Origin: Lachnospiraceae bacterium AC2029
GTDB taxonomy: Bacteria; Bacillota; Clostridia; Lachnospirales; Lachnospiraceae
Length of the DNA stretch: 64,000 bases
Direction of reading: 5' to 3'
Assembly: GCA_000703065.1 (NCBI GenBank)
Contig: JNLK01000001.1
Coordinates: forward strand, 2,006,001-2,070,000
Shown piece after piece: positions 9,062 through 14,404 of the stretch. The stretch's first letter is position 1. Each line of letters opens with the position of its first letter. The notes below the pieces were generated by a model. The model searched no databases, was not told where the DNA came from, and saw nothing but the letters and a program-made list of their open reading frames with translations. Both the position numbers and the translations under genes were made by a program.

Positions 9062-9089
9062 TTGCCTAAGGCGGGTTTTGTGTTATAAT
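9062..9089 (+). promoter_or_regulatory. Putative promoter for the MATE/ATP-grasp/SpoIIE operon
   Basis: TTGCCT at 9062-9067 and TATAAT at 9084-9089 are 16 nt apart, about 80 nt before the first gene. The -10 box is perfect; the -35 box is partial. Confidence 0.6.
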
Positions 9090-9167: not shown

Positions 9168-10922
9168 ATGAATGATAATAAGATCCTCATGAAAAAATAT
9201 AAGCAGTATCTGCTGCCGTCGATCCTGACATCTCTGGCATTGGCGCTGAATGAGTTTGTGGATTGTATGCTGGTATCGAATCTTCTGGGAAGCGACGCCC
9301 TGGCGATTGCGAATATCGGCTGCCCCGTGATCCTTCTTATCGCGGCGTGCTATGTGCTTCTGGGAAACGGCGGATCCATCCTGTATGCGATCTGTCTCGG
9401 AAGATGGGATAAGGAAACTGCAGGCAAGGTCTTCCGGCTTTCGCTGATCCTGTCTGCTGTGGGTGGTGTTCTGTTCTTCGCGATCGGTATGCTCTTCAAG
9501 GGGACATTTACGGAGATCCTCTGTGCAGATAAGGAGCTGCTACCTACATTTCAATCCTACTACCATGTGCTTCTCTATTCCGCACCGGTACTGATGCTGA
9601 CACTTACCTTTGTGTCCTTCCTTCCGCCCTCGGGCGCACCGGTGATCGCCACCATCGTGAACATCGTTGCCAACGGAACAAACCTCGTCATGGATGTGGT
9701 GTACATCAAATTCCTGAAGATGGGAGTAGAAGGAGCCGGATATGCCACCATTACCGGATATCTGATCGGCTTTATCGTGATGCTGGTCCTGATGAAGGTA
9801 CGAAAGGTGAGACCTGTATCCGTACCGCTTACGCGCCGGTCTTCAGCAAAAAGAAAAGGAGGCGTCCTGTGGCTGATAGGAAGGATCGTTGCCCAGGGAG
9901 CACCTGCCGCCATGCTTCAGGTATGCTTTGCCATCAAGTACGGCTTCAGTAACGGCCTGGCAGTGAATTACGGCGGCAGAGACGGAGTGGTTGCATTTTC
10001 CCTCTGTCTCCAGACCTTCTCCATAGCTTCGGTATTTCTGCTGGGCGTGGCGGACACGGCACAGCCGCTTCTGGCCATGCTGTACGGACAGAAGGATTAT
10101 AAGGGAGAACGGACCGTGCTGAAGCACTCCTTCTTCCTGCAGATCATATTTGCCCTGGGACTCATCGCATTTTTCGAGATACTTCCCCAGACCATCGCCG
10201 GGATGTACGGCGTAAATGATCCCGAGGTTCTCCGACTGGGCAAGACGGGGATCCGGCTCTTCGCCCTGACCTACCTTCCGCGGGGGATCGGCATCCAGTT
10301 TATGCGTTTCTTCCAGGTAGAGCAGAGGAGAATATACGCCTTCTTCATAAGTCTGATGGATGGGCTGCTGGTACTTCCGGTAGGATACTTCCTCTGCGAG
10401 CTGGCAGGTCTGAACGGAGTCTTTATCTCGTATCCGATTTCCGCGGCGCTCATGCTTTTGGTGATCGTCATAATTAATGCAAGGATCTACATGAAGCGTC
10501 CCAAGGACTACTGCGGGATCTCACTGGTCCGTAAGGATTCGGGAAGTATTGCCAATAAGAGCTTTACGATCACGGACGCTTCGGAGGACATCTCCAATGC
10601 AAGCGAGCAGATGATCGATCTTTGCTCGGAGCAGGGCGTGCCCAGGAAGCTGGCTTTCCGTGTGGGACTTCTCATTGAGGAGATGGCAGTCTATACCAGG
10701 CAGCACAGGACAGATGAGGGAGATATAGATATCACCCTCCGGTTGACGGAGCGGGAGATCACCATCAACTTCCGGAGTATCGGAACACCGTTTGATCCCA
10801 CCACCGGTAAGGAGGGAGATATCCCGGAGAATATCCTGATGTTGAAGAGCATGGCGTCAAGAATATCCTATGACTATATCATGGGTATGAACAGTACGCA
10901 GATACTGATAGAGAGGAGTTAG
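9168..10922 (+). CDS. MATE-family transporter fused to a C-terminal RsbW-like ATPase domain
   Basis: This 584-aa protein joins two parts. Residues 1-450 form a MATE exporter with about 12 TM helices. Residues about 465-584 resemble the HATPase fold of RsbW/SpoIIAB anti-sigma kinases: the helix LAFRVGLLIEEMA in the N-box position, the segment SIGTPFDPTTG where anti-sigma kinases have D-x-G-x-PFDP, and a final helix-strand (ILMLKSMASRISYDYIMGMNSTQILI). Key ATP-site residues look changed: no Asn in the N-box, Ser for Asp before G.PFDP, and no Gly-rich lid. The domain may therefore bind a partner rather than hydrolyse ATP. The next gene starts 2 nt after the stop, and the third gene encodes a SpoIIE-type phosphatase, the usual opponent of RsbW-type kinases. 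Export substrate unknown. Confidence 0.85.
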   Translation: MNDNKILMKKYKQYLLPSILTSLALALNEFVDCMLVSNLLGSDALAIANIGCPVILLIAACYVLLGNGGSILYAICLGRWDKETAGKVFRLSLILSAVGGVLFFAIGMLFKGTFTEILCADKELLPTFQSYYHVLLYSAPVLMLTLTFVSFLPPSGAPVIATIVNIVANGTNLVMDVVYIKFLKMGVEGAGYATITGYLIGFIVMLVLMKVRKVRPVSVPLTRRSSAKRKGGVLWLIGRIVAQGAPAAMLQVCFAIKYGFSNGLAVNYGGRDGVVAFSLCLQTFSIASVFLLGVADTAQPLLAMLYGQKDYKGERTVLKHSFFLQIIFALGLIAFFEILPQTIAGMYGVNDPEVLRLGKTGIRLFALTYLPRGIGIQFMRFFQVEQRRIYAFFISLMDGLLVLPVGYFLCELAGLNGVFISYPISAALMLLVIVIINARIYMKRPKDYCGISLVRKDSGSIANKSFTITDASEDISNASEQMIDLCSEQGVPRKLAFRVGLLIEEMAVYTRQHRTDEGDIDITLRLTEREITINFRSIGTPFDPTTGKEGDIPENILMLKSMASRISYDYIMGMNSTQILIERS

Positions 10923-10924
10923 CC

Positions 10925-12268
10925 ATGAAGATTGCATTTTACAGTTCAGGCGGTGTGGAACCGGATTCGGCTGTATCTCCCCGGCATTTTTTGTTTCCGA
11001 AGAAGAAGGAAGAGTGGGACGCCCTGGCGGAGAGTCGTCCGGAGGATGAGATATCGGTTTATTGCACGGCCTCCGCGACACACATGATCGACATAGCGGG
11101 GGGAGAACTGCTGGCGTCGCCGGATAAGGTGAAGTATCATTTCTTTCCCTTCACGGATTCTATCGAGGAGGTGGCTGACCGGATGTTGAAGGACGGTGTG
11201 GAGGCTGCCATAGCGTATGGTCTGCCGGATGTTCCGTATGACTGGTATTCCGTCCGGGATGCGCTGGTGGGAGATGCCCTGAGGAAGCGGGGGATCCGGG
11301 TGATATCACATACGGCGAGGACGGCGCAGTACTGCCTGGAAAAATGGACCTTCGGACGGATCCTCCGGGAGAACGGGTTCCCGGCGGCAAAAGGGATCCA
11401 TGTCCATGGCGGTATGTTTCATGCAGAACGCAGGGTCTCCGAGATCCGGAACAATGTATATCAGGAATACATACGCAGCCGGCTGGAGGAGCTGACCTAT
11501 CCCGTGATCCTGAAGGCAGCGGCCGGAAGCGGCTCCGTGGGACTTCAGGTGGCCGGATCAGCGGAGGATGCCTTTCGGAGATTGAAGGAATGTACCGATG
11601 AGGCGGATGTTCTTGTGGAGGAACGTATAGACGGCATGAATTTCGGCGTGGAGATCTACGGTGATCCCGACGGATATGTGGTATCCGATCCGATCATTTT
11701 CTCCACCGGAAAGGACGGAGTAACGGATCCCTTCAACAGTGTAAAATACGGGCCCATCCGGGATGAGTCATATCACGTAGATGAGTTGAAGGAACAGGTT
11801 ATGCGGCTGGGCCGTATTCTGGGACTCTGCGGCATCGCGGAACTGGATCTGATCTTCAGTAAGGGGACATGGTATATCCTGGAGGTGAACCCGAGATTTT
11901 CGCGTCTGTCCCAGCCGGTGGCCCTGATGGAGGGATGGGATCCGTTCCATCCGCTGCTTCAGACAGTGCTTCCGGCAGAGCAGAGAGTATTCCGGATAAA
12001 GGAAAGAAACTATATCCTTGATTTTAAGACGAAGTTCCTTTCGGATGAGCTGATCCGGGAGATAGAGAGGCAATTTCCCCAGGTACGTCACGTGCTGAAA
12101 TTTCAGTATGGTATTTCGGGAAGTGGAGAGATTAACCATTGTGAATGGGTCCTTGCGGCAGAAAGCAAGGAAGAGGTGGCAGAGGGACTGCAGGCCCTGC
12201 GGGAGGCATATCCGGAGGTAGTCAGTACAGCCGTGATGGAAGCCGCAAAGGAAATGATGGAGGAGTAA
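10925..12268 (+). CDS. ATP-grasp ligase-like enzyme
   Basis: A 447-aa cytoplasmic protein of the ATP-grasp superfamily, whose members join a carboxylate to an amine or thiol through an acyl-phosphate. An N-terminal Rossmann-like pre-grasp region (1-125) is followed by the grasp core: YPVILKAAAGSGSVG (nucleotide lysine and Gly-rich loop), VLVEERIDGMNFGVEIYG (acidic metal and hinge region), and GIAELDLIF..GTWYILEVNPRFS with the metal-binding Glu and Asn. The last 100 residues are an extra domain. It is closest in style to carboxylate-amine ligases making small peptides or modified amino acids; the substrates cannot be named. The 2- and 4-nt gaps to its neighbours make it the middle gene of a tight operon with an exporter and a phosphatase. 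Confidence 0.85.
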   Translation: MKIAFYSSGGVEPDSAVSPRHFLFPKKKEEWDALAESRPEDEISVYCTASATHMIDIAGGELLASPDKVKYHFFPFTDSIEEVADRMLKDGVEAAIAYGLPDVPYDWYSVRDALVGDALRKRGIRVISHTARTAQYCLEKWTFGRILRENGFPAAKGIHVHGGMFHAERRVSEIRNNVYQEYIRSRLEELTYPVILKAAAGSGSVGLQVAGSAEDAFRRLKECTDEADVLVEERIDGMNFGVEIYGDPDGYVVSDPIIFSTGKDGVTDPFNSVKYGPIRDESYHVDELKEQVMRLGRILGLCGIAELDLIFSKGTWYILEVNPRFSRLSQPVALMEGWDPFHPLLQTVLPAEQRVFRIKERNYILDFKTKFLSDELIREIERQFPQVRHVLKFQYGISGSGEINHCEWVLAAESKEEVAEGLQALREAYPEVVSTAVMEAAKEMMEE

Positions 12269-12272
12269 GCCT

Positions 12273-14297
12273 ATGGACAGAGGAAAAAGGAAACCGATCA
12301 AAAAGATGATGCGCCGGTCGGTAATGCTCATTTCTGCGTTATCACTGCTGCTCCTTATGATCGGAGCATCGTTGACCATGCTCTATATCCGGGCGCGAAG
12401 CAAGTCGGCGCTGATCTCACAGGCAGAGCAGAATCTGAAGAATACGGTTTCGGAACGTGCAGACCTGGTGGATTCCAAGTTGCAGCGGTATGCAGAAAAG
12501 GTGACTCTTTTTGCCGACTATATCAAAAAGCTGTATTCGGATCCGGATGCCGTAAAGAAGGTGGAGGTTCCTCCCCTTTCGGCAGAAAACAAGGGTATCC
12601 TTGTTCTGCAGCCCAACAAGATCAGTGAGGATATCAAGGACGAGGCGATCGCAGAAGAGAAAGCGCTCCTTGGTAATATGGACATGATCTTATATCCCGT
12701 ATTCACCGAAAATGAGGATGTGATCACCACCATCTATTTTGCTACGGAAAGCGGATTGCTCATGGCCTATGACCGGCAGTCTGATATCAAACCGGATGCT
12801 TGCTACAATGCGCATGAGACCGATTGGTACAAGCTGGCAAAGGAGCAGGGAAAGGCCGCCTTTACGGATGTCTATCTGGATTCTTTTGACCGGGGGCTTA
12901 CCATCACCTGCGTGGCCCCGTTCTATAAGCCGGATGGCTCCTTCGCAGGCGTGATCGGTATGGATATCCTGATCTCGGATCTGTATGAAGATGCGGTTGC
13001 CATGGATCTGGAAGAGGATTCCTACGCCTTCCTGGTGGATAATAAGGGAAATGTGATCTCTCCGAAGATGGAGGAGAGGTCCCTGGATGCAGAAGATGGT
13101 ATGGATCCGGATGTATCCAAGAAGATCCTTTCAGGAGTAACCGGCATAACGCTGTCCGGTGACCGGATCTATTTCGCCTATTCCACCGTATCCAGTACGG
13201 ACTGGAAATTCTGTATCCGTTGTCCGGAGGAGGTGGTTCTTGCTCCGGTCAGCGACATGAATCAGAGTATTGTGACGGCGATCCTTATCTTTGCTGCGGT
13301 ATTCTGGATCTCAAACCTGGCTATTCTGATCAACTCGAAACGGTTCGCCGATTCCGTGACACGGCCCATCCTCGCACTCGGAAATGATGCGAAGGTGATC
13401 TCCGAAGGTAATCTGGAACACCGGGCCGTAGCCGAGACAAATGATGAGATCGGAGACCTGGCCATCAACTTCAACAAGATGGCTGAGGAGCTGAAGGAGT
13501 ATATAGAGAATCTGACCCGTGTGACGGCGGAGAAGGAGAGGATCGGCGCCGAGCTGAATGTAGCTACCCAGATCCAGGCGGATATGCTGCCCCGGATCTA
13601 TCCTGCATTTCCGCAGTTCACGGAATTTGACATCTATGCAACCATGGATCCTGCAAAGGAGGTAGGTGGAGACTTCTACGACTTCTTCCTTGTGGATCAG
13701 GATCACCTGGGTCTGGTCATGGCGGACGTCAGCGGCAAGGGAGTGCCGGCGGCGCTGTTCATGGTCATCGCCAAAACCCTGATCAAGAACCGGGCACAGA
13801 TGGGCGGAACTCCGTCCGAGATCCTGGGCTTCGTGAACGAACAGCTCTGCGACGGAAATGAGGCACAGCTCTTCGTTACTGTCTGGTTCGCAATCCTTGA
13901 CATCCGTACAGGTAAGGGTATTGCTGCCAATGCCGGACATGAGCACCCTGTAATCAAACGTGCCGGCGGGCAGTATGAGCTGGTGGTATACAAGCATTCA
14001 CCGGCAGTCGCAACCATGGAAGGTCTTAAGTTCAGAGAGCATGAATTCGAGCTGCATCCCGGTGATACCCTTTTTGTTTACACCGATGGCGTTCCGGAGG
14101 CGACGAATGCAGACAATGTACTCTTCGGTACGGACCGCATGCTTGACTCGCTGAACCGTGATCCGGATGCGGATCTGAAGACGCTGCTGAAGAATGTACG
14201 GGAGGATATCGACGGCTTCATGCTGGATGCACCGCAGTTTGACGATATCACCATGCTGGGACTTACGTACTCCGGCAAGACGGAAGAAAAGGAATAA
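12273..14297 (+). CDS. Membrane dCache-HAMP-SpoIIE (PP2C) phosphatase
   Basis: A 674-aa receptor phosphatase. The order is TM helix (about 15-40), an extracellular dCache-like sensor (about 60-330, with an ETDWYKLA...TDVYLD segment typical of the family), a second TM helix (about 330-350), HAMP (about 360-415), a coiled linker ending in AEKERIGAELNVATQIQADMLP, and a SpoIIE/RsbU PP2C domain. Metal-binding motifs GGDFYDFF, ADVSGKGVPAALFM, YTDGVPEATN and FDDITML are intact, so the enzyme should be active on phosphoserine proteins. In partner-switch pathways this type dephosphorylates a STAS protein; no STAS gene lies in the window. Its best local partner is the RsbW-like domain of the MATE fusion two genes upstream. 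Confidence 0.9.
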   Translation: MDRGKRKPIKKMMRRSVMLISALSLLLLMIGASLTMLYIRARSKSALISQAEQNLKNTVSERADLVDSKLQRYAEKVTLFADYIKKLYSDPDAVKKVEVPPLSAENKGILVLQPNKISEDIKDEAIAEEKALLGNMDMILYPVFTENEDVITTIYFATESGLLMAYDRQSDIKPDACYNAHETDWYKLAKEQGKAAFTDVYLDSFDRGLTITCVAPFYKPDGSFAGVIGMDILISDLYEDAVAMDLEEDSYAFLVDNKGNVISPKMEERSLDAEDGMDPDVSKKILSGVTGITLSGDRIYFAYSTVSSTDWKFCIRCPEEVVLAPVSDMNQSIVTAILIFAAVFWISNLAILINSKRFADSVTRPILALGNDAKVISEGNLEHRAVAETNDEIGDLAINFNKMAEELKEYIENLTRVTAEKERIGAELNVATQIQADMLPRIYPAFPQFTEFDIYATMDPAKEVGGDFYDFFLVDQDHLGLVMADVSGKGVPAALFMVIAKTLIKNRAQMGGTPSEILGFVNEQLCDGNEAQLFVTVWFAILDIRTGKGIAANAGHEHPVIKRAGGQYELVVYKHSPAVATMEGLKFREHEFELHPGDTLFVYTDGVPEATNADNVLFGTDRMLDSLNRDPDADLKTLLKNVREDIDGFMLDAPQFDDITMLGLTYSGKTEEKE

Positions 14298-14355
14298 AGG
14301 AAGGTTCGGAATACCCCGGGACGTTTTTGTCCGGCGGGGATGAGAGTAACCTCAG

Positions 14356-14404
14356 GGACGGTTTCTGCCCGGCGGGATCAACGCCGGGTGGGAACCGTCC
14401 TTTT
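14356..14404 (+). terminator. Strong terminator after the SpoIIE phosphatase gene
   Basis: Arms at 14356-14374 and 14382-14400 (GGACGGTT..GCCCGGCG with CGCCGGGT..AACCGTCC) pair through all 19 positions if G-T wobbles are allowed, followed by TTTT. The GGACGGTT/AACCGTCC ends match the hairpin units that flank the CotH gene. Confidence 0.9.

Follow-up and report, generated by a model that had tools for sequence, protein, structure and literature searches.

We analysed a 64,000-nucleotide stretch of DNA from Lachnospiraceae bacterium AC2029 (hereafter the window; positions 2,006,001-2,070,000 of the 3.86-Mb single-contig genome), in which the open reading frames (ORFs) of a MATE exporter, an ATP-grasp ligase and a membrane sensor phosphatase form one unit. 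The ORF coordinates are exact and are given as window positions; they leave gaps of 2 nt and 4 nt between the three genes. An earlier reading of the letters without database searches (the sequence-only reading) had described this tight spacing and the fusion of the exporter to an RsbW-like domain, and both descriptions hold. The unit is composed as follows.

9168-10922, + strand: MATE exporter gene, 584 aa (ORF, MatE match)
9168-10541, + strand: MATE exporter part, residues 1-458 (MatE 96.4 bits; ratio of nonsynonymous to synonymous substitution rates, dN/dS, 0.16-0.19 for three orthologues)
10542-10922, + strand: RsbW-like pseudo-HATPase domain, residues 459-584 plus stop codon (hidden Markov model (HMM), hhalign, structural model; dN/dS 0.05-0.08)
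10925-12268, + strand: ATP-grasp ligase, 447 aa, 2 nt 3′ of the exporter gene (Pfam; PDB relatives)
12273-14297, + strand: dCache-HAMP-SpoIIE (PP2C) sensor phosphatase, 674 aa, 4 nt 3′ of the ligase gene (Pfam)
12633-13217, + strand: dCache_1 sensor domain, phosphatase residues 121-315 (80.5 bits)
13698-14267, + strand: SpoIIE/PP2C domain, phosphatase residues 476-665 (147.6 bits)

That the three genes belong together, as the sequence-only reading proposed, was borne out in a genus sample of 61 genomes, 31 of which have a completeness of 90% or more and a contamination of 5% or less. The exporter search matched 7 of the 61 genomes at E ≤ 1e-60, the close matches being the window exporter and two orthologues (76% and 73% identity), and the trio occurs in the same order in three of the 61 genomes (the window and the loci L218 and L219). 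Identity to the window proteins in L218 and L219 is 72-76% for the exporter, 61-63% for the ligase and 70% for the phosphatase, and none of the genes flanking these two loci matches the window, barring generic ABC-domain, MATE and repeat-like similarity. L218 and L219 have, 3′ of SpoIIE, three to four genes in common (93-100% identical) and therefore represent one genomic context, not two. Because the trio is conserved in three species and the flanks of the window are unlike those of the other two, its adjacency is not due to chance. Comparison of L218 (4691-9841) with L219 (4940-10059), which come from two close species, gave protein identities of 97-99% for SpoIIE, 82% for the ligase and 72-81% for the exporter, and past the exporter gene the two loci no longer correspond; judged by this comparison, an exchange seems to have replaced the exporter-ligase end while the phosphatase end stayed.

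The exporter belongs to the MATE family, with a MatE score of 96.4 bits in two stretches (cut-off 24.9), and falls well short of the cut-offs that the drug-MATE equivalogs among the listed NCBIfam models require. Pfam alone detects HATPase_c_2 weakly in its C-terminus (E 0.016, 15.7 bits, below the cut-off of 27.4). An HMM built from the HATPase_c_2 domains of the same genome matched exporter residues 477-576 at E 9e-9, and an hhalign comparison between a profile of 26 MATE C-termini and 11 RsbW-like proteins yielded a probability of 99.4 and an E of 1.7e-21; against the PDB, the 26-row profile reached RsbW (6m36) at just E 0.0015 and SpoIIAB at 0.06-0.08. An AlphaFold2 model of the domain, computed from a single sequence with no alignment and of low confidence (pLDDT 63, pTM 0.60), was compared with the PDB by Foldseek, and RsbW, SpoIIAB, UsfX, a SigF-anti-sigma protein or Rv1364c occupied 19 of the 21 best rows, the two others being one Leptospira response regulator. 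All 12 matches at E ≤ 0.001 were of the RsbW, SpoIIAB or UsfX kinds, the best RsbW and SpoIIAB rows had a prob of 1.00, and complexes of RsbV/RsbW and of SpoIIAB were among the best rows; RsbV and SpoIIAA are STAS proteins. Taken together, these profile and model comparisons show that the last 126 residues of the exporter have the RsbW/SpoIIAB fold, as the sequence-only reading had supposed.

The same reading had noted that ATP-site residues are missing from this domain. In an alignment of 51 MATE C-termini with 22 RsbW-like domains, Tyr509, Ser537 and Asn555 of the exporter occupy the positions expected for the N-box Asn, the G1 Asp and the G2 Gly, so that the window exporter lacks the ATP-site motifs. 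The N-box Asn is kept in 31 of the 51 MATE C-termini versus 19 of the 22 RsbW-like domains, the G1 Asp in 39 versus 21 and the later G2 Gly in 37 versus 20; the GG pair of G2, also gone in the window exporter, is found in none of the 51 versus 18 of the 22. All three substitutions are common to both orthologues of the window exporter, and Tyr at the N-box together with Ser at G1 was present in 10 of 10 exporters found beside a window-type ATP-grasp or an ATP-grasp_4-like gene (the window, L103, L104, L218, L219, L220, L221, L224, L225 and L226; in L225 the ATP-grasp gene lies at a distance of one gene, and the HATPase HMM does not match the exporter). Among the three orthologues, dN/dS is lower in the domain than in the membrane part, the ratios being rough with dS near saturation. 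On these patterns of residue loss and selection, the domain is best described as a maintained putative pseudo-kinase domain that would work independently of ATP. Because the domain is RsbW-like, has lost its ATP-site residues and is under purifying selection, control by protein binding, which had been suggested from the letters, is the best reading of its role. A FastTree (approximate maximum-likelihood) tree places the window exporter with that of L104, then with L110 and then with L118.

The phosphatase matches SpoIIE at 147.6 bits (PF07228, cut-off 25), dCache_1 at 80.5 and HAMP at 37.1, and the PP2C motifs GGDFYD, DVSGKG, YTDG and FDD are found in all three orthologues. It thus has the domain and the acidic motifs of a SpoIIE/RsbU PP2C phosphatase; a nearby STAS substrate, which is common for such enzymes and not strictly required, was not found by the STAS HMM in the first 26 kb of the window, in L218 or in L219. 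The PP2C half is 83% identical to both orthologues; within the unit, conservation between the window and the orthologues is lowest in the N-terminal sensor half (59-60% identity). The closest solved sensor domain to its dCache is that of the chemoreceptor PctA. Sensing of amino acids was considered and set aside: the Arg of the amino-acid motif aligns with a Thr, and despite the nearness of PctA we claim no amino-acid ligand.

The ligase exceeds the Pfam cut-offs of PF07478, PF02655 and PF02786 and has 4dim, 2pn1 and 3k3p as PDB relatives. Two narrower assignments were rejected, namely D-alanine-D-alanine ligase (Ddl; TIGR01205, 33.2 against a cut-off of 245.65) and the PRK12767 carbamoyl-phosphate-synthase-like protein (NF009406, 57.8 against 271). 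A ligase of the window type was detected in 2 of 299 genomes of the family at E ≤ 1e-20, where the one relative does not adjoin a gene for a MATE protein with a C-terminal HATPase-like domain (hereafter MATE-HATPase).

The sequence-only reading had asked whether ATP-grasp and SpoIIE genes consistently accompany MATE-HATPase genes. The C-terminal domain of the exporter matched 33 of the 299 family genomes at E ≤ 0.001, some of the matches lying in SpoIIE-HATPase or stand-alone HATPase proteins, and by manual count 26 of these 33 genomes have a MATE-HATPase gene; in a phylum sample, 36 of 398 genomes matched the domain profile at E ≤ 1e-6, many in other HATPase proteins. We compared 51 MATE-HATPase genes, four of them from this genome, with 37 plain MATE genes with respect to neighbouring partner-switch genes, defined as SpoIIE, STAS and RsbW. 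The cases were gathered by similarity to the window domain, plus two paralogues of this genome from a MatE search; four of the 51 (L051, L052, L112 and L139) are without an HATPase HMM match and were kept for their length, L051 and L052 matching the domain profile. The controls, which are not random, came from 40 hand-chosen regions with the best MatE matches in frames of at most 502 residues in 22 case-bearing genomes, and three regions (L181, L191 and L202) in which no MATE gene was called were dropped. ORFs were taken from a greedy caller that produces an occasional wrong-strand frame (seen in L219).

A partner-switch gene was located within 3 kb of 21 of the 51 MATE-HATPase genes and of none of the 37 plain MATE genes (Fisher p 1.4e-6). 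The corresponding counts were 13 of 51 versus 0 of 37 within 1 kb, and 23 of 51 versus 1 of 37 within 5 kb. In a second, hand-picked set from genus and phylum searches, 10 of 18 MATE-HATPase genes had such a neighbour within 3 kb (two of 20 regions, L232 and L233, were dropped for want of a MATE gene, and two of the 18, L225 and L236, have no HATPase HMM match). RsbW-like genes lie near the exporters of L052, L108 and L125, with intact motifs, and also near those of L228, L230 and L231.

Same-strand neighbours were tallied by Pfam for 126 of 132 case proteins (one duplicate and, for their size, five nonribosomal peptide synthetase (NRPS) proteins were left out; three of the 126 are encoded in the window 5′ of the unit) and for 129 control proteins. 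The case tally included STAS (10), SpoIIE (9), ABC_tran (6), GH3_C (6), GH3 (5), APH (4), ATPgrasp_ST (3), ATP-grasp_3 (3) and HATPase_c_2 (3), and among control families with at least two members in the 129 none of these recurred except ABC_tran (3). By a hand count confined to the cases, a candidate carboxylate-activating, carrier-reductase or amide-forming enzyme is encoded beside or near 20 of the 51 MATE-HATPase genes; three of the 20 (L106, L108 and L116) depend on a weak AMP-binding match of cluster c8 (1.7e-5 and 1.9e-5, below the cut-off), and the remaining 31 genes were not all scanned singly. These neighbours include NRPS proteins with two adenylation domains, one condensation and one reductase domain (L105 by Pfam; L110, L121, L137 and L154 by similarity), GH3 proteins (L115 by Pfam; L106, L108, L114, L126 and L140 by similarity), ATPgrasp_ST proteins (L115 and L140 by Pfam; L113 by similarity), a Mur-ligase middle domain (L114), a carrier-protein-reductase (L107) and an aminotransferase with a GH3 C-terminal domain (L118). 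ATP-grasp_4 was found in L102 and L104 by Pfam and in L103 by similarity, the L102 gene not adjoining a MATE gene.

In three loci (L234, L235 and L237), a gene beside or one gene away from a MATE-HATPase gene encodes a fusion of an N-terminal STAS domain to an NRPS condensation domain, and a profile of these three proteins identified five places in 4 of the 398 phylum genomes, all of one family.

L234:1354-2946: STAS-condensation fusion (Pfam)
L235:5251-6843: STAS-condensation fusion (Pfam)
L237:9540-11144: STAS-condensation fusion (Pfam)
L243:7101-8696: STAS-condensation fusion (profile match)
L244:7786-9390: STAS-condensation fusion (profile match)

All five loci are beside a MATE-HATPase-type gene, with one NRPS gene between in L234, and the gene order in L244 is SpoIIE, STAS-condensation, MATE. 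Three of the five were found via their MATE neighbour, so just L243 and L244 are independent; the L244 MATE has no HATPase HMM match and was assigned from its length and aligned motifs. Elsewhere, two related proteins (L148:8595-9461 and L126:8227-9150) are encoded directly 3′ of a MATE-HATPase gene, and the L148 member matches Pfam HD-CE.

Fourteen relatives of the ligase in named genomes belong to Lachnospiraceae and to Atopobiaceae or Coriobacteriaceae. A STAS or SpoIIE gene is on the same stretch as the ligase relative in 11 of the 14 loci, and eight of the 14 have, whole or in part, a recurring layout of ABC-exporter-like genes, a STAS-bearing gene, an ATP-grasp gene, an ATP-grasp_4-like gene and SpoIIE. 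The relative in L158 lies directly 3′ of an NRPS gene and that in L166 near a 2,944-residue NRPS-like protein. In L102 (9709-10926), a STAS domain is fused to an APH-type phosphotransferase domain and adjoins an ATP-grasp gene; similar STAS-bearing proteins are encoded in L130 and L150 beside a MATE-HATPase gene and in L143 beside a SpoIIE-HATPase gene, Pfam having been run on the L102 protein only. Proteins of about 395-500 residues (clusters c168, c169 and c170) recur in the ATP-grasp/STAS/SpoIIE cluster of L102, L159-L165 and L170, not all of them in each locus, and the L102 members of the three clusters had no Pfam match.

Overall, the literal trio is not general, given its rarity in the genus and that of the ligase in the family; the wider theme of an exporter with partner-switch genes and ligases is. 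We give roughly an even chance to the reading that the unit is a compact make-export-sense cassette, that is, a synthesis-and-export cassette under partner-switch control. The conserved trio, the fold of the pseudo-domain and the constraint on it, the enrichment of partner-switch genes and the recurrence of ligases around related exporters, the STAS or SpoIIE genes near ligase relatives, the STAS-condensation fusions and the STAS and HATPase_c_2 places elsewhere in the genome speak for it. In such a cassette the ATP-grasp enzyme would join a carboxylate to an amine, probably an amino-acid or peptide-like one, to give a small compound that the MATE protein would export. The RsbW-like domain of the exporter, having given up ATP, would be retained as the surface on which a STAS protein docks; with its dCache domain the membrane phosphatase would sense a small molecule outside the cell, and it would dephosphorylate this STAS protein, which RsbW-type kinases encoded elsewhere in the genome would rephosphorylate. 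Bound, unphosphorylated STAS would then gate the exporter or bring the synthetic enzyme to it. Put most economically, the exporter domain would be the STAS receiver, the phosphatase would set STAS phosphorylation and RsbW would reset it. Because the genome holds 11 STAS and nine HATPase_c_2 places over the cut-off, partners in trans exist, and in the window the STAS and RsbW partners would have to act in this way. The earlier observation is confirmed, and the earlier interpretation, in which the phosphatase senses an outside signal and controls the exporter while the ligase makes or modifies the exported compound, is partly supported; the product, the ATP independence, the STAS partner and its binding, the sensing and the direction of control are the parts that we infer.

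Several results weigh against the cassette. Neither a STAS nor an RsbW gene was detected by HMM in the window's first 26 kb or in L218 and L219, the orthologous 18-kb loci; because no STAS gene was found there, the middle link of the pathway is either supplied in trans or absent. No partner-switch gene lies within 3 kb of 30 of the 51 MATE-HATPase genes, and homologues lacking a partner, which the sequence-only reading had named as evidence against itself, thus occur as far as the exact trio is concerned, not the wider theme. With the N-box Asn retained in most MATE C-termini, the pseudo-kinase state is not general, and loss of the ATP site showed no association with partner-switch neighbours (12 of 24 vs 9 of 27, p 0.27). 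For the ligase, none of the best 25 of 41 NCBIfam models reaches its cut-off. No MATE-HATPase gene is present on the stretches of the 14 ligase relatives, several of which are merely 3-5 kb long, and eight of these loci have one or two ABC-exporter-like genes instead; another exporter may take the place of the MATE-HATPase protein there.

The exporter could alternatively be a transceptor that reports transport or substrate status through binding and release of a STAS or sigma-like protein at its C-terminus, with gene expression rather than export gating as the output. SpoIIAB- and UsfX-type domains do bind STAS proteins and sigma factors, as in the PDB complexes among the best Foldseek rows, and since the operon has no STAS or RsbW gene such partners would act in trans; however, the fusion of STAS to a condensation enzyme in five loci points to an enzyme or exporter output, and no sigma-factor family is among the best 25 of the 146 tally families, which is weak evidence, as rarer families fall outside those 25 and no dedicated sigma-factor search was made. 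We consider a transceptor unlikely. MATE proteins are often drug exporters, and a self-protection system, in which the pump would expel and the ligase modify a toxic compound while the phosphatase serves general stress signalling, would also accommodate the sensor domain of the phosphatase. The set of enzymes that adjoins related exporters (NRPS, GH3 and several ATP-grasp families) is biosynthetic, not detoxifying, and the window MATE is far under the drug-MATE cut-offs, which makes self-protection quite improbable.

Loss of all three scored ATP-site positions would be expected if the C-terminal domain were the decaying remnant of a fused RsbW that no longer has a function. We considered and rejected such a relic, which is nearly refuted by a dN/dS in the domain below that of the transporter part and by the same Tyr and Ser replacements in every exporter found beside the two ATP-grasp gene types. 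Chance sharing of a promoter by functionally unrelated genes would fit the rarity of the window-type ligase and of the trio, and the shared flank of two of the three trio loci, which are hence not independent; the same trio in the same order in two other species with surroundings unlike those of the window largely refutes it, and the enrichment of partner-switch genes relative to plain MATE controls also speaks against it, leaving it with hardly any probability.

The make-export-sense cassette can be extended to a broader proposal, which we offer tentatively and hold to be rather doubtful. Partner switching would here be a phosphorylation-gated plug and socket, in which a STAS domain carried by an amide-forming enzyme, or encoded near one, docks on the pseudo-RsbW of the MATE protein and the sensor phosphatase sets the docking, so that synthesis, export and sensing of a small, possibly autoinducing compound would form one circuit; several families of the phylum would use it, each with one or another of a set of exchangeable enzymes (NRPS, GH3, several ATP-grasps and STAS-condensation proteins).

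RsbU/RsbV/RsbW and SpoIIE/SpoIIAA/SpoIIAB are sigma-factor partner-switching systems. The unit contains two of their three domain families, the SpoIIE-type phosphatase and the RsbW fold, and STAS genes are near many related exporters; it differs in that its RsbW-like domain is on a transporter and has lost the N-box Asn, G1 Asp and G2 Gly, and in that the first 26 kb of the window, which take in the unit, yielded no STAS gene. NRPS clusters of gut Clostridia that make dipeptide aldehydes or pyrazinones were reportedly described by Guo and colleagues in 2017. NRPS genes with two modules and a terminal reductase domain likewise adjoin MATE-HATPase genes (L105 by Pfam; L110, L121, L137, L222 and L223 by similarity), whereas in the window the ATP-grasp enzyme stands alone and an NRPS is absent.

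A partner switch controlling aggregation has been described in Pseudomonas aeruginosa, namely SiaABC, in which a PP2C phosphatase opposes a kinase on a small partner protein (PMC7647112). Because SiaABC controls aggregation, such switches can have targets other than a sigma factor. Among the NCBIfam models, SiaA scores highest for the window phosphatase; at 76.7 bits against an equivalog cut-off of 700, membership in SiaA or Sia was rejected. In contrast to SiaABCD, the unit has no separate kinase, partner-protein or cyclase gene, and its kinase-like domain forms part of an exporter and has no ATP-site residues at the scored positions. Gut fatty-acid-amide NRPS-like clusters have a stand-alone condensation enzyme, OaaC, according to the main text of their report (PMC13142362), in which the terms STAS, anti-sigma and transporter do not occur. 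On that text, these are free-standing amide-forming condensation enzymes of gut Clostridia, like those beside MATE-HATPase genes, whereas the condensation enzymes found here have an N-terminal STAS domain. The literature searched, mostly without reach into subscription papers and thus weak evidence of absence, gave no description of a MATE-HATPase/ligase/phosphatase unit or of STAS-condensation fusions.

Partner switching is known mainly for sigma factors and the Sia diguanylate-cyclase pathway; if the proposal is true, it would also control the synthesis and export of small molecules. The MATE-HATPase gene could then be used to look for metabolite clusters of the gut and rumen that have yet to be described; many of these would have enzymes such as GH3 or ATP-grasp, which, we expect, standard cluster finders may miss. 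The proposal predicts that STAS proteins bind the C-terminal domain of the exporter.

Two further features flank the unit.

9062-9089, + strand: promoter-like site TTGCCT-16-TATAAT with TG before the second hexamer (consensus scan, 10/12 matches)
14355-14401, + strand: terminator-like stem of 20 pairs, then Ts, 3′ of the phosphatase gene (a strong stem)

The promoter-like site ends 78 bases 5′ of the exporter gene; the scan returned five such sites against a shuffled mean of 5.4, i.e. no excess, and is of little use. Elsewhere in the genome, a partial SpoIIE match (C1:1177488-1177820, profile positions 58-167) lies directly upstream of another MATE gene (L051:5644-7377), whose product ends in a degenerate HATPase-like domain, and this SpoIIE match may be the remnant of a similar unit.

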